Source of the DNA: Luteitalea sp. TBR-22
GTDB taxonomy: Bacteria > Acidobacteriota > Vicinamibacteria > Vicinamibacterales > Vicinamibacteraceae
Length of the DNA: 64,000 bases
NCBI RefSeq assembly: GCF_016865485.1
Contig: NZ_AP024452.1
Span: 2,316,501-2,380,500, forward strand
Reading direction: 5' to 3'
Below are positions 3,758 through 9,711 of this stretch, in pieces. Below the pieces are notes generated by a model. It ran no database searches and was not told the origin of the DNA. It saw only the letters and a program-made list of their open reading frames with translations. The translations under genes and the position numbers were made by a program. The stretch's first letter is position 1; each line of letters opens with the position of its first letter.

Positions 3758-5368
3758 TCACCGTATCCGATAGATGCGGCGTTCGGTGTCGGACGCGAGC
3801 AGCGTCACGGCCGGCATCTTCTGCAAGGCGGCCACGGCATCGGGAGCCTGGCCGACGTGGACGACGATGTGGGTGACGCCGGCGCGGCGGAGGGCATCGA
3901 TGCTGTCGGTGCCGGGGAAGCCCTGGAACGCCAGGTAGTGGTCCACGTAGCTCCTGGGCGTGTAGCCGGAGTACCCGTTGAGCAGCGGCTTCCAATGCGC
4001 CGTGGAGGCCTGCACGGCGGCCGCGTTGACGGCGACGCGCGCCGGCTCGGGGAACGGCAGTTCCGCGACGATGGCGTTCGGCTCGCGTGCGAGTGCCTGG
4101 TACATGGCGGGGATGCCGTCGAACTCGACGAACCCCATCGGCACGCGCGTGTTCTCGACGTTCACGAGCACCACTGCCGCCACGCCGAGGGCGTGCGCCG
4201 CGCGGCCCGCGCCGCGCGCCTCGAGGCGCGTGCGCAGCCATGCGAGGCCGAACGCACCGAGCACGCCGACGGCCAGCAGCGGCAGCAGCGCGAAGCGGGC
4301 GACGGCGCGGATGCCCTGCAGGATCGGCACGACGCGATACAGCACGGCATAGCCTGGCAACTCCGGTCCGAAGCTCAACGCCGCGCCCACCAGCCCGATG
4401 GCGAGCCACGTGCGGGCCCGCGGGTCACGCCAGGCGATGCCGGCGCCGACCGCGACGAGCGCGAGCAGCCATGGGGTCACGCCCGGGAAGGCTGCGGAGT
4501 TGGCCTGTCGATAGAGGCTGGCGTTCCACGTCTCGTAATGGACGCGCGCACCGGTCGCCACGAAGTTGGCCCACGCCCCGGCGTACTGGCGCACTTCGTC
4601 CACCGAGCGCGTGAGGCCCTGATCCTGCTGGACGCGGTAGTACTGGAGCAGGAACGGCGCGCAAAGAAGCGCCATCACACCGATGGCGAGCGCCAGGGAC
4701 GGCAGCACGGTCCTCGCCCGGGCGCCGAGCCAGTCGCGCGGCCGCACCAGTACGCCGACGGCCAGCGACACGCCGGTCATCACCAGCAGGTAGCCCGAGC
4801 AGAGCATCTGCAGCGCGGCGTAGAGCCCGAGGCGCAGGGCGTCGCGACGCGATCCCGAGCGCAGCGTGTCGTCGAGCGCAAGCAGGGCCAGCGGCAGGAA
4901 CTCGACGTGCATCGCCTGGATGTGGGCCATGCGCGTGAGCGTGTCGGTGTTGAAGGCGGCGAGGCTGCCAGCCAGCAGCGCGGCGTACCAGTCGCCCGTC
5001 CACCGGTGCACCACCAACGCCATCGTCCACCCGGTGAGCGCGAGGCCGATCCAGAGCGTGACGTTGTAGGCGAGCACCGGCCCGCCGCCTGCCCAGAAGA
5101 CGGGGGCCGAGAAGAGGGCGGGCACCACGAGGTGTTCCGAGAACGCCAGCGTGCGCGGCTCGGGGAAGAAGATGTTGGCGTCGAACAGCGACAGCGGTTG
5201 CGTCGCGAGGGCGTGCGCCACCCAGCCGAGGATCCACTGGTTGAGCAGGCCGTCGGCGCTGTCGGTGCGCGAGAGCGTGGCCGGCGCGGTGACCAGCGGC
5301 CACGTGTGCGCCAGCGCGAGGAGCACGAAGAACGCTAGCGCGGCGCCCCGACGATCTCGTAGAGCCAC
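3758..5368 (-). CDS. Polytopic membrane protein, putative GT-C-type glycosyltransferase (paralogue 2)
   Basis: About 536 residues with some ten hydrophobic segments and a soluble C-terminal tail of ~130 residues. It is a paralogue of the protein encoded just upstream (5335-7050): both share a TWPL/TWPM first membrane segment, an acidic first loop (SRTDSADG here), NIFFPEPRTLAFSE versus NIFHPDRDTLAYSE, a conserved His in AHIQ, and NGYSGYTPRS versus NGYSDHIPQW near the C-terminus. An acidic first periplasmic loop is the hallmark of GT-C lipid-linked sugar transferases, so that role is inferred; no domain is certain. GTG at 5368, overlapping the upstream gene by ~34 nt, keeps a charged stretch before the first membrane segment; GTG 5326 is an alternative. 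Confidence 0.6.
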   Translation of the reverse strand: MALRDRRGAALAFFVLLALAHTWPLVTAPATLSRTDSADGLLNQWILGWVAHALATQPLSLFDANIFFPEPRTLAFSEHLVVPALFSAPVFWAGGGPVLAYNVTLWIGLALTGWTMALVVHRWTGDWYAALLAGSLAAFNTDTLTRMAHIQAMHVEFLPLALLALDDTLRSGSRRDALRLGLYAALQMLCSGYLLVMTGVSLAVGVLVRPRDWLGARARTVLPSLALAIGVMALLCAPFLLQYYRVQQDQGLTRSVDEVRQYAGAWANFVATGARVHYETWNASLYRQANSAAFPGVTPWLLALVAVGAGIAWRDPRARTWLAIGLVGAALSFGPELPGYAVLYRVVPILQGIRAVARFALLPLLAVGVLGAFGLAWLRTRLEARGAGRAAHALGVAAVVLVNVENTRVPMGFVEFDGIPAMYQALAREPNAIVAELPFPEPARVAVNAAAVQASTAHWKPLLNGYSGYTPRSYVDHYLAFQGFPGTDSIDALRRAGVTHIVVHVGQAPDAVAALQKMPAVTLLASDTERRIYRIR

Positions 5369-7050
5369 ACGTCGCCTTCGGTGAAGAGGGGCCGCACGTA
5401 GTCCCTGTACTGCTCGAGCCGCTCGCGCAGGCGCATCCGGCTGCGGCTGTCGTAGTGCCGCGTGTGGAAGATCGCGTACTTCGCCTGGTGGCGGTCGACC
5501 ACGATCTGCAGCGACTCGGCGGTGGGGAAGCTGCTGATGCGCACCACCTCGTCGCGGAACCACTGCGGGATGTGGTCGCTGTAGCCGTTCACGAGCGGGT
5601 GCCAGTGGTACGTCGAGAGCAGCATGTACCGCGAGTGGCGCGGGAAGTCGGTGCGGATGTACCAGAAGGGCAGTTCGACCACCGCGCCTGGCGGCAGCGT
5701 CGCGAGGCGACGATGGGCCTCGGGAGCCGGTGCGGCATCCTCGAGGCGGATCGGCGCCGTGGCGTATTCCGCCGTGAAGAGCAGCGCGACGAGTGAGCCC
5801 GCCATCAGTTGCGTGCGGGCCGGGCGCCGTTCCGTCCACGTGCGCAGCGCGACCAGCGCGAGTACCCCGAGCGCCAGCGACACGAGGATGCCGAAGCGAC
5901 CCGGCGCGCGCAGGAACGTGAAGATCGGGATGCCGTAGTAGAGCGCCGTGTAGAGGTACGCCTTGGGGCCGAAGCTGGCCCAGAACGCGATCGTGCCGAC
6001 CATGCCGTAGAAGATCGTCGTCTCGCGGCGATACGGCGCGTCGAGGGGCGAGGGGGTATGTGGGGTCGGCGCCGGACCGTCGACGTGAACGTCGACGGCC
6101 ACGAACGGCTTGCGTAACCCGAAAACCAGACCGGCGAGGCCCAGCGCCGTCAGCAGGAAGCCGGGGAACAACACCTCGTTCCAGTGGCCGAGCCACGGCA
6201 GCATCCACCGGTGTGCCCACGCCGACGAAGCCAGCCACGCCTGCCAGTCGGCCGAGTACATGGCGGCGTCCTCGAGCAGGCGCGTGAAGCCGAGTTCCTT
6301 CTGCACGCGGATGTACGGCAGGAAGAACGGCCCGACGAGCGCCAGGCTGACGACCGCGCCGAGCGCGATGGCGACCCAGTAGCCGCGTGAGCGCCAGAGG
6401 CCGCGCGTCGCCGCGAAGTAGAGCGTGCCGAGACCCACCGTGAGGCCGGCGAAGATGCCGAAGTACGCGCACGCCAACGCCTGAATCGCCAGCGTCACGC
6501 CGAGCCACGCGCCGCGGCCAGCCGAGGGGCGCGCCACCAGTCGGTGGAAGGCCTGCAGCGCCAGCGGCAGGCCGAACGTCATCATCAACTGGATGTGCGC
6601 CGTGCGGGCGAACAGGTACGGACAGTACGTGAACGCCACGGCGAACGCCGCGGCCATCGCGCTCGAGGCGCCGAGCGTCTCGGCAAAGCCCCACGCGAAG
6701 ACGAAGGCGAGGACGAGTGCGGTCAGGATCGCGCCGTTGTGGGTCGCGTACGGATTGCCGCCGGTCGCCAGGTGGAACGGCGCGCCGAGCAGGCCCGTGA
6801 CGACATTGGCCTCGGAGTAGGCGAGGGTGTCGCGATCGGGGTGAAAGATGTTGGCCTGGAAGAGGGAGCCGGGCGCCGTGGTCAGGGCGTGGGCGACCCA
6901 GGTGACGTTCCAGACGCTCCACTCGCCGTCGCCGAAGTTCAGGCGGGCCGCGCGGTCGAACTTGCCGGCCATGGGCCACGTCATGGCGATGGCGAGCAGC
7001 AGGCCCAGCACCAGGCGGCCGCTCCAGGTCGCGGCGCGTCCCGACGGCAT
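5335..7050 (-). CDS. Polytopic membrane protein, putative GT-C-type glycosyltransferase (paralogue 1)
   Basis: A 571-residue integral membrane protein with roughly eleven hydrophobic segments and a C-terminal soluble region of ~130 residues. The first outside loop carries NFGDGEW, compatible with the acidic DxE-type catalytic loop of GT-C glycosyltransferases, followed by NIFHPDRDTLAYSE. Donor and acceptor are unknown. ATG at 7050 is chosen: it is 27 bp from the divergent ATG at 7078 and has a TACCAT -10 box 9 nt upstream. The loop around residues 318-330 (VAVDVHVDG) is encoded by a perfect palindromic repeat at 6077-6098, so that segment is a repeat-derived insertion. The open frame extends far upstream of 7050 only as antisense to the next gene. 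Confidence 0.6.
   Translation of the reverse strand: MPSGRAATWSGRLVLGLLLAIAMTWPMAGKFDRAARLNFGDGEWSVWNVTWVAHALTTAPGSLFQANIFHPDRDTLAYSEANVVTGLLGAPFHLATGGNPYATHNGAILTALVLAFVFAWGFAETLGASSAMAAAFAVAFTYCPYLFARTAHIQLMMTFGLPLALQAFHRLVARPSAGRGAWLGVTLAIQALACAYFGIFAGLTVGLGTLYFAATRGLWRSRGYWVAIALGAVVSLALVGPFFLPYIRVQKELGFTRLLEDAAMYSADWQAWLASSAWAHRWMLPWLGHWNEVLFPGFLLTALGLAGLVFGLRKPFVAVDVHVDGPAPTPHTPSPLDAPYRRETTIFYGMVGTIAFWASFGPKAYLYTALYYGIPIFTFLRAPGRFGILVSLALGVLALVALRTWTERRPARTQLMAGSLVALLFTAEYATAPIRLEDAAPAPEAHRRLATLPPGAVVELPFWYIRTDFPRHSRYMLLSTYHWHPLVNGYSDHIPQWFRDEVVRISSFPTAESLQIVVDRHQAKYAIFHTRHYDSRSRMRLRERLEQYRDYVRPLFTEGDVWLYEIVGAPR
6077..6098. repeat. Perfect palindrome CCGTCGACGT-GA-ACGTCGACGG inside a coding sequence
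   Basis: Ten-base perfect arms with a GA spacer, in frame within the membrane protein 5335-7050, where it encodes VAVDVHVDG in a loop. A near copy is intergenic at 3624-3643. Confidence 0.75.
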
Positions 7051-7059
7051 AGGGGGCGT

Positions 7060-7069
7060 ATGGTAGCAT
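7060..7069. promoter_or_regulatory. Bidirectional -10 element (TAGCAT + / TACCAT -)
   Basis: The ten bases ATGGTAGCAT hold a plus-strand TAGCAT (7064-7069) 8 nt before the ATG at 7078 and a minus-strand TACCAT (7065-7060) 9 nt before the ATG at 7050. The two boxes overlap by two bases. The 27-bp intergenic space has no room for separate promoters or for Shine-Dalgarno leaders. Confidence 0.6.
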
Positions 7070-7077
7070 GCCGCCCG

Positions 7078-9711
7078 ATGCGCGCCCTGGTGCCGCTGCT
7101 GACGGCTGCGGCCCTCGCGCTCGGGGGCTGGCTGGCGACCGGAACCGTCACCGTCCGCTCCCTCGACGCGCCCGCCCGCATCGGCCTGATCGGTCCCCCC
7201 AGTGCCTTCCTGTCCTTCCTGCTGCCGCTCCTGGCCTTGTCGGCGATCGGCCTGGCCAGGGGCTCGCGCTCGCCCGGCCCGCTCGTCGCGCTCGCGCTCG
7301 TCTCGCCGGTGGTGCTGCCGTGGCTGCCGCTGCCCATCCCGGCGGCCTGGCTGGCATGGACCGGCCCCCTCGCCGTCGGCTGGTGGCTCGCCTGCGTCAC
7401 GTACGTCCACGCTGACGCGTTTCGCCTGCTCGCCCGGCCGCTCGGCGGCATGCTCGGCGCACCCACGCGGGCCCCGTGGTTCGCCGCGGCCGTCACCGGC
7501 GTGGCGCTCCTCGCCACGGCGTGGCACACCGCGCCGCAGCACCCGAAGGGCGACGAACCCGACTACCTGGTCATCACCCAGAGCCTGCTCCTCGATCGCG
7601 ACCTGCGCATCGAGGACAACCACGCGCGGGCCGACTACGCGACATACCACCCGCGGCCCCTGCCCCCGAGCTACCTGGCCCGCGGCACCGACGGCCAGAT
7701 CTACTCGGTGCATGCGCCGGGGCTGCCGGCGCTGCTCGTTCCCGGTTTCGCCGTGGCCGGATACCGGGGCGCCGTGGCGACGCTCGTCCTGTTCGCGATG
7801 TTCGGTGCGTGGCTCGCGTGGCGCGTGAGCTGGCAGGTGACCGGCGACGTGACGGCCAGTTGGGTCGCGACCCTGGCCACCGTGGGCGCGGCGCCGTTCT
7901 TCCTGCACGGCGCGGCGATCTTCCCCGACGCGCCGGCGTCGGCGCTCGCGCTGCTGGCCATCGGCGTGTTGCTGCGCGAGGCCGTCAGCAGTGGTGGGCC
8001 CGGGTCTGCCGCCCGGCCGTCGGCGGCCCCGTGGGCGCTGGCGTCGCTCGCGCTCGGGCTGTTGCCCTGGCTGCACACGCGCTACGCGCTGATCTCGGTC
8101 GGGCTCGGCGCGGCGAGTGCCGCGACGCTGCTCGTCCGGCGCGACTGGCGGGCCCTCGCCGCGTTCGTCGTACCGGCGGCAATCGCCGCGGCCGCGTGGT
8201 TCGGGTGCTTCGTCTGGATCTACGGCACGCCTGACCCGTCGGCGCCGTACGGCGCGTACACCCAGATGGCACTCGCGCACCTGCGCCCGGGGCTGCCCGG
8301 GCTGCTCGTCGACCAGCAGTTCGGGCTGCTCTCGACGGCCCCAGTGCTGGTCCTGGCACTGGGCGCCCTGCGGTTGTCGGTGCGCCGGGAACGACCAGGT
8401 GCCTGGTGGGTGTCGGTGTTGGTGGTGGCCCTCGCCGCGCTCTATACGTCGACGGTCGGCGCCTACCGCATGTGGTGGGGCGGCCTCTCGGCGCCGGCGC
8501 GCTTCCTCGTGCCGCTGGTACTGCCGCTGGCGCCGTTCATCGCGCTCGGCTGGCAGTCTCTGCGCACCCGGGCGTCGCGACACCTGGCCATGGCGGCGCT
8601 CGTCGTGTCGCTGGCGTGCACCACCGCGCTGGTCGTCGCCGACCACGGAGCGTTGGCCTACAACGTCCGCGACGGGCGGGCGCGCGTGCTCACGTGGGCC
8701 AGTCCCCTCGTCGACCTCGTGTCGGCGTTGCCGGCGGCGCACCGCGACCCGCCACACGTGGTCGTGCACGATGCGTTCGCTTGGGCGGCACTCCTGGCCG
8801 TCGCGTGGGCCGGGTGGCGACTCGCCGAGCGCCGCGGACGACTGACGCCCGTGGCATCGATGCTCACGCTCGGGCTCGTGGTGGTGCCCGTGGCGTCGGC
8901 CACGGTGCGTGCGGGTCACCGGGCGCCAGCCCTGCAACCGGTCGCCTCGCAGGTCCGTTACCTTGCGCGACGCGCCTCGTCGCCTCGGGACGTGCTGGTC
9001 GCGATCACGCCGCCACCGACCGGACGGACGCGCACCTGGTTCGATGTCGAACTCGACTCGCGACGACGGACGGGGGCCGCCGACTACACGCTGCTCCGCA
9101 TCGACGATCTGCCGGCGGGGCGGTATCGCCTGTGGGCCGATGGGGGCGGGCCGGGCGCACGCCTCGGGGTGTCGCTCGGCGACGGACGAACGGCGCGCTT
9201 CGCGGCCGACCTCCAGCCGGCGGGTGCCGCGGTGTCGGTGCCCTTCGTGCTCGGCGTGCCGGTGCAGGAACTCGTGGTGAAAGCGTCCCGGGAGGCCGCC
9301 GCCAGCGTCCGACGCACCTGGATCGTGGCCGACGAGATCCGGGCCGACGACAGCCCGGCGCCAGCCACCCGACTGCACGCCATCGGCGATCGTGTGTGGC
9401 TGCTCCCCGAGGACGGCATCTACCCGGAAGCCGACGGCGCCTGGCTTGCTGGCGACGCGGCGGTGACCGTGGGTGTCACCGGTGACGGGCCGGTTGTCGT
9501 GGACCTGCGCGCCGGCACCGCCCCGGTCACGGTGACGTGGACCGGGCGAGCGAGCGGGCGCCTGACGCTGGGGCCGGGGGAGGTGCGGACGGCGACGATG
9601 ACGCCGCAGCAGGGGCGGCTGCGGATCGAGACGCGCGGCGGTTTCCGGCCCGGACAGGGCACCACCGGCGGTGACCAGCGCTGGCTCGCCGCCTGGATCT
9701 CCGCCCGGTAG
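7078..9711 (+). CDS. Large GT39/GT-C-like membrane protein with C-terminal beta-rich domain
   Basis: An 877-residue protein. Residues ~1-120 hold four hydrophobic segments; residues ~150-620 hold eight or more, with an acidic loop GDEPDYLVITQ near residue 160 resembling the DE(x)Y loop of PMT/GT39 glycosyltransferases. Residues ~640-877 have no membrane segments and look beta-rich (LRIDDLPAGRYRLWAD, VTVTWTG), like a carbohydrate-binding or jelly-roll module. Likely transfers a sugar from a polyprenyl carrier on the outer face of the inner membrane; this is inference. ATG at 7078 begins with a plausible signal-anchor (MRALVPLLTAAALALGG). Divergent from the two paralogous membrane proteins and probably in the same surface-glycan process. 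Confidence 0.6.
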   Translation: MRALVPLLTAAALALGGWLATGTVTVRSLDAPARIGLIGPPSAFLSFLLPLLALSAIGLARGSRSPGPLVALALVSPVVLPWLPLPIPAAWLAWTGPLAVGWWLACVTYVHADAFRLLARPLGGMLGAPTRAPWFAAAVTGVALLATAWHTAPQHPKGDEPDYLVITQSLLLDRDLRIEDNHARADYATYHPRPLPPSYLARGTDGQIYSVHAPGLPALLVPGFAVAGYRGAVATLVLFAMFGAWLAWRVSWQVTGDVTASWVATLATVGAAPFFLHGAAIFPDAPASALALLAIGVLLREAVSSGGPGSAARPSAAPWALASLALGLLPWLHTRYALISVGLGAASAATLLVRRDWRALAAFVVPAAIAAAAWFGCFVWIYGTPDPSAPYGAYTQMALAHLRPGLPGLLVDQQFGLLSTAPVLVLALGALRLSVRRERPGAWWVSVLVVALAALYTSTVGAYRMWWGGLSAPARFLVPLVLPLAPFIALGWQSLRTRASRHLAMAALVVSLACTTALVVADHGALAYNVRDGRARVLTWASPLVDLVSALPAAHRDPPHVVVHDAFAWAALLAVAWAGWRLAERRGRLTPVASMLTLGLVVVPVASATVRAGHRAPALQPVASQVRYLARRASSPRDVLVAITPPPTGRTRTWFDVELDSRRRTGAADYTLLRIDDLPAGRYRLWADGGGPGARLGVSLGDGRTARFAADLQPAGAAVSVPFVLGVPVQELVVKASREAAASVRRTWIVADEIRADDSPAPATRLHAIGDRVWLLPEDGIYPEADGAWLAGDAAVTVGVTGDGPVVVDLRAGTAPVTVTWTGRASGRLTLGPGEVRTATMTPQQGRLRIETRGGFRPGQGTTGGDQRWLAAWISAR

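Follow-up and report, generated by a model that had tools for sequence, protein, structure and literature searches.

The 27-bp gap between two divergent membrane protein genes of Luteitalea sp. TBR-22 contains, in all likelihood, a single bidirectional promoter of the sigma-70 type, in which one extended -10 element would be shared by both genes. Relatives in several families keep this element, and they tend to lose one half of it where the gene on that side was not found. The source genome has 6.47 Mb and a GC content of 71%, and the locus was analysed within a part of it, a stretch of 64,000 nucleotides referred to below as the window. The features of the locus are as follows.

4445..5338, minus strand: N-terminal part of a second, paralogous membrane protein (34% identity), directly downstream of the minus gene (G000:C1:2320945-2321838).
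5335..7050, minus strand: minus gene, encoding a 571-aa membrane protein with a GT-C-like fold (oligosaccharyltransferase/ArnT-like), from a model and fold comparison.
7050-7048, minus strand: ATG of the minus gene, from frame and coordinates.
7051..7077, no strand: divergent gap, 27 bp.
7060..7069, no strand: ATGGTAGCAT, putative shared two-way extended -10, a near-palindrome ATGnTAnCAT, from sequence, conservation and reciprocal tests.
7061..7069, plus strand: extended -10 TGgTAGCAT, from sequence, genome spacing and conservation; predicted start near 7076.
7060..7068, minus strand: extended -10 TGcTACCAT, from sequence, genome spacing and the reciprocal test; predicted start near 7053.
7078-7080, plus strand: ATG of the plus gene, from frame and coordinates.
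7078..9711, plus strand: plus gene, encoding an 877-aa membrane protein with a possible ArnT-like (GT-C-like) fold and a C-terminal beta domain, from an NF047440 profile match, an AF2 model and Foldseek.

Searches of Pfam and NCBIfam gave a firm family for neither membrane protein. The model of the minus protein (pLDDT 85) matched oligosaccharyltransferases and ArnT with a best E of 2e-6, and with query TM scores of 0.39-0.54 among the 22 matches with E up to 0.001. For the plus protein (AF2, pLDDT 89) the first Foldseek match was ArnT (5f15, E 6.8e-7), but with TM scores of 0.29 and 0.44, both below 0.5, and its match to NF047440 (E 5.6e-15) reached 55 bits, under the cut-off of 200. The initial annotation had called this protein GT39-like; the fold lends that label modest support, whereas Pfam lends it none, no GT39- or GT83-like match above threshold being found for the plus gene. 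A further homologue of the plus gene, 35% identical, is encoded in the source genome at G000:C1:4228725-4231592.

The gap was confirmed to hold two overlapping hexamers, TAGCAT on the plus strand and TACCAT on the minus strand. The plus hexamer occupies 7064-7069, 8 nt before the plus ATG, the minus hexamer occupies 7065-7060, 9 nt before the minus ATG, and the TA at 7064-7065 is common to both, forming -12/-11 in each direction. Beyond what had been recorded earlier, each hexamer is preceded by the TG of an extended -10, at 7061-7062 on the plus strand and at 7068-7067 on the minus strand. Each hexamer agrees with TATAAT at only four of six positions and no -35 element is visible, so that both strands show the combination of TGn before the hexamer and a weak or absent -35 that defines extended -10 promoters. 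The upstream promoter DNA of each direction does lie inside the opposite gene, as had been proposed, and TTGACA-like conservation at -38 to -33 was absent there among the aligned relatives. If transcription begins 7 nt past the hexamer, the predicted starts fall near 7076 (plus) and 7053 (minus); because the TA is shared at -12/-11 these would be about 23 bp apart, a register within the 7-25 bp range of the symmetric -10 class, whose hexamers likewise overlap on both strands. The predicted starts lie only 2-3 nt before each ATG, and both mRNAs would therefore be leaderless or nearly so.

We propose that RNA polymerase carrying the housekeeping sigma factor would bind ATGnTAnCAT both ways round and read, on one strand or the other, an extended -10 of the form TGnTAnnAT, without -35 elements. 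The housekeeping sigma of this genome was found, and its IRIPVHMIETINK stretch, which we take to be the part that reads the TG of extended -10s, is identical to that of the solved RpoD chain 7ye1. Only one polymerase would fit at a time, and two genes for GT-C-like membrane enzymes would in this way be coupled through one site, possibly with a regulatory benefit to the cell.

The base composition of the DNA makes such an element improbable by chance: ATGnTAnCAT is expected somewhere among the 18 sites of the gap with a probability of about 2e-5, and the bare AnnnTAnnnT with one of 0.8%. Genome background was assessed in a sample of 464 kb, made up of 20 stretches of 20 kb (400 kb) and the window. 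The extended -10 pattern TGNTANNNT occurred 36 times in this sample and was followed at 6-9 nt by ATG or GTG in 18 cases, two of which are the readings of this gap itself, against about four expected (binomial tail 1e-8), while a reversed-pattern control was flat. This genome therefore has a genuine class of extended -10s placed at leaderless distance, to which the two readings of the gap, at 8 and 9 nt, belong. When two-way pairs were defined as TANNNT 6-9 nt before the ATG or GTG of two divergent open frames, each 60 codons or longer and separated by 15-70 bp, the gap was the sole two-way leaderless pair in the 464-kb sample. Genome-wide, ATGnTAnCAT is found in six places (reversed control, one), and at none of the other five does an ATG stand at leaderless spacing on both sides.

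Two further observations concern the genome as a whole. At G000:C1:3900663-3900672 the perfect palindrome ATGCTAGCAT has a TTG 7 nt away on the plus strand (298 aa) and an ATG 6 nt away on the minus strand (95 aa), which makes it a weak candidate for a second two-way site. In addition, TANNNT is about 3.4 times rarer than the reversed pattern in the 464-kb sample (473 vs 1631), and this scarcity may reflect selection against stray -10s.

The exact 12-mer TATGGTAGCATG was present, as a single copy each time, in 24 of 162 genomes of the order Vicinamibacterales, against 1 of 162 for the reversed control. In 20 of the 24 it lies at this locus, where 19 copies adjoin a minus-gene homologue (in G036 partly a remnant) and one, at the end of a contig, adjoins a plus-gene homologue; the other four are elsewhere. 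Outside the order it was found in five of 354 genomes, from a phylum sample of 396, compared with 18 matches, by our count, for the reversed control. We rejected the idea that the 12-mer is a generic promoter word, as it occurs once in this genome and is no commoner than the reversed control outside the order. Six loci from named relatives were also inspected; the exact 12-mer was present in one (apparently G004:C205 again) and missing from five. The gap itself measures 26 bp in the relatives G001, G002 and G004. In G036 an apparently truncated remnant of the minus gene (L077, positions about 1500-2150) adjoins an intact element and a fuller homologue lies farther on, an arrangement possibly left by duplication and decay.

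Homologues of the minus gene were then taken without requiring the motif, giving 93 rows (E <1e-38) from 161 genomes, 88 of them with upstream DNA. In the 250 bp upstream, the sequence closest to the 12-mer matched it exactly at 17 of the 88 loci and had one mismatch at nine, two at five and three at two; the remaining 55 had 4-6 mismatches, which we took as chance level. A divergent partner resembling a glycosyltransferase or a methyltransferase lies on the plus side at 41 of the 88.

The same relatives allow each strand to be scored separately. Loci were selected if an extended TANNNT preceded the minus start by 6-10 nt, a choice that fixes plus columns -16, -12, -11, -9 and -8 by construction, and only the columns it leaves free were counted as evidence. 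A partner was present at 28 of the loci so obtained (a glycosyltransferase at 10 and a methyltransferase at 18; families f1, f2, f4, f6 and f11) and was not found at six, where neither a homologue of either enzyme type nor an evident divergent frame was seen. Among the 28, the free columns were kept in 27 (T-17), 27 (T-15), 27 (G-14), 26 (G-13), 21 (G-10), 27 (T-7) and 25 (G-6) loci, most changes falling at -10, a column that neither reading specifies, and flanking columns carried 0.07-1.32 bits. T-7, a base of the plus reading only, persists at 27 of the 28 partner loci and at none of the six partner-less ones (C in five, G in one), whereas G-14 was kept in four of those six. The Fisher p for T-7 is 5e-6, a value that overstates the independence of the loci, which share ancestry. 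In a tree built from 35 minus proteins, the lack of a partner has to be explained by three changes, two of them forced by well-supported branches, and one sister pair (support 96/89) differs at T-7 itself: G053, with a partner, has TAGCAT, and G026:345, where no partner was found in just 277 bp of DNA past the hexamer, has TAGCAC. In five of the six partner-less loci the upstream neighbour appears tandem rather than divergent, judged by frame length and third-position GC. Ranking loci by similarity to the 12-mer, with no base demanded, gave the same asymmetry: five partner-less loci had at most three mismatches each, and these 12 mismatches fell at -7 (five), -17 (four), -14, -13 and -6, none of them at bases that the minus -10 needs.

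The reciprocal choice was made from the plus side, where an extended -10 precedes the plus start by 6-12 nt in 12 of 28 loci collected for the plus gene. The minus bases that this choice does not demand, A-16, C-9 and A-8, were kept in all 11 with a divergent minus partner. The single locus without one (G041) has G at -16 and has thus lost the minus T-7. With one partner-less locus only this contrast is thin, though it points in the same direction as the test from the minus side. Evolutionary retention in both tests suggests, indirectly, that both directions matter to the cell. These comparisons favour the original proposal that one -10 is common to the two genes, and they indicate that each direction is under selection of its own.

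Could the palindrome instead be the operator of a dimeric regulator of both genes, its resemblance to a -10 being incidental? Near-palindromic form would suit such a site, as would the near-fixation of G-13, T-17 and G-6, which exceeds the needs of a bare extended -10, and the presence of the exact word as a single copy in each genome, as expected for a dedicated regulator. We nevertheless regard an operator as unlikely. The minus ATG stands 8-9 nt past the minus hexamer in every one of the 26 loci whose match has no more than one mismatch, and where the plus gene was not found it is the plus-promoter bases that go, not symmetric pairs. Moreover, two relatives of family f2, G030 (C34) and G102 (C30), have TAGAATA upstream of the minus-gene homologue, in an 18-bp symmetric register, and so retain the logic of a -10 and not the sequence of an operator. 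Set beside their 23-bp relatives, these two loci possibly represent a turnover of register. Minus starts that depart from the usual arrangement were seen in G018, where a perfect palindrome is kept yet the minus start is off leaderless distance, and in G042, where the minus start requires a GTG at 7 nt.

A promoter that serves the minus gene only, with the plus reading a by-product of the palindrome and the plus gene starting elsewhere, is less probable still. Such a promoter would agree with the minus spacing, the more constant of the two, and with the organisation of family f2, in which a methyltransferase gene (the G134 copy matches Methyltransf_11) adjoins the element on the plus side. In 17 loci the conserved start of this gene is 22-37 nt distant, a glycosyltransferase-like gene following behind it in some, and in G104 and G105 a longer methyltransferase frame could start nearer, with TTG. 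Against a minus-only promoter stand the plus-only T-7, with its 27 of 28 against none of six, and the plus start, which lies 8-9 nt from the hexamer in 10 of 10 loci with a glycosyltransferase partner. The claim of the initial annotation that both mRNAs are leaderless thus fits this genome and those 10 loci; at the 17 methyltransferase loci the distance of 22-37 nt leaves only the minus side leaderless, and two-sided leaderless transcription is not general.

Conservation of the 12-mer as a translation signal or start codon is hardly credible: each strand contains an ATG, and that at 7060 on the plus strand shares the frame of the plus gene in this genome (ATG GTA GCA TGC CGC CCG ATG, 7060-7080), but a start signal on one strand would not retain the bases of the other, and the frame meets TGA in G040 and G049 and is shifted in G023 and G053. 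For the same reason the ATG at 7060 is not a conserved start, and it was rejected as the plus start. A minus start at 7069 was likewise rejected: it is 19 nt from 7050 and so does not share its frame in this genome. The in-frame ATG that overlaps the element might be mistaken by a gene caller for the start of the plus gene.

The shared extended -10 is not found at every divergent pair. Thirteen of the 41 partner loci fall outside the 28, and 10 of these, in f10 and f15, retain the divergent genes but lack the element, which indicates that it is neither universal nor indispensable. Four f15 loci (L154, L155, L055 and L015, in G066, G067, G029 and G055) have facing -10-like words, TAGAAT...ATTCTA/ATTGTA, 5-8 bp apart. 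It is conceivable, and we offer this tentatively as a reading we would not yet favour, that two cell-surface glycosyltransferase-like operons are obligately coupled through one site, a single near-palindromic extended -10 that several families of an acidobacterial order have kept. Having outlived the insertion of a methyltransferase on one side and a change of register from 23 to 18 bp, the element would then be under selection for the sharing of one polymerase site and not merely for two promoters.

The founding paper on bidirectional promoters with a symmetric -10 is said to be that of Warman and colleagues from 2021, which we know through later papers. Ordinary divergent promoters give coupled control of divergent neighbours from separate -10s in a shared intergenic region; here, in contrast, the same bases would serve both directions. 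In bidirectional promoters as a class, -10s on both strands overlap and the starts are 7-25 bp apart (PMC10268837), and a spacing of 23 bp has already been named as common, besides 18 and 10 (Warman et al., 2026, PMC12825309). The promoter proposed here resembles those described in the available part of the latter report in having one -10 read on both strands, a 23-bp spacing and two mRNAs. It differs from them in that an extended -10 is present on both strands within one near-palindrome, in that both mRNAs are predicted to be leaderless and the gap is only 27 bp, and in that conservation across families points to selection on each direction (PMC12825309). Opposing polymerases at bidirectional promoters exclude each other sterically, and the five E. 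coli bidirectional promoters tested had basal activities too low to make competition relevant (PMC12825309); competition between the two directions for this one site is accordingly a possibility and not a finding. Leaderless mRNA arises from promoters in which TANNNT stands about 10-12 bp ahead of the start codon (Zheng, 2011, PMC3160421; the 2025 Deinococcus study, PMC12340547), and such promoters were predicted in three of three Acidobacteria genomes (PMC3160421). Two of them would be merged here, a two-way arrangement not seen in the available portions of those two reports (PMC3160421, PMC12340547).

A search of the open-licence PMC literature brought up neither a two-way element that is both doubly extended and doubly leaderless nor conservation of this kind at the level of families. 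We conclude that the gap probably belongs to a known class, the 23-bp bidirectional promoter, and that what appears new is its compact, doubly extended and, in this genome, doubly leaderless form. Bidirectional promoters are known from start-site maps of E. coli and Salmonella, in which function and by-product are hard to separate, as far as the available parts of the sources describe. The relatives of this locus amount to a natural mutation experiment, in which the bases of a strand are kept along with its gene and a key base is lost where that gene was not found. Selection for two-way use thereby becomes directly testable in a compact natural promoter that apparently drives two leaderless mRNAs.
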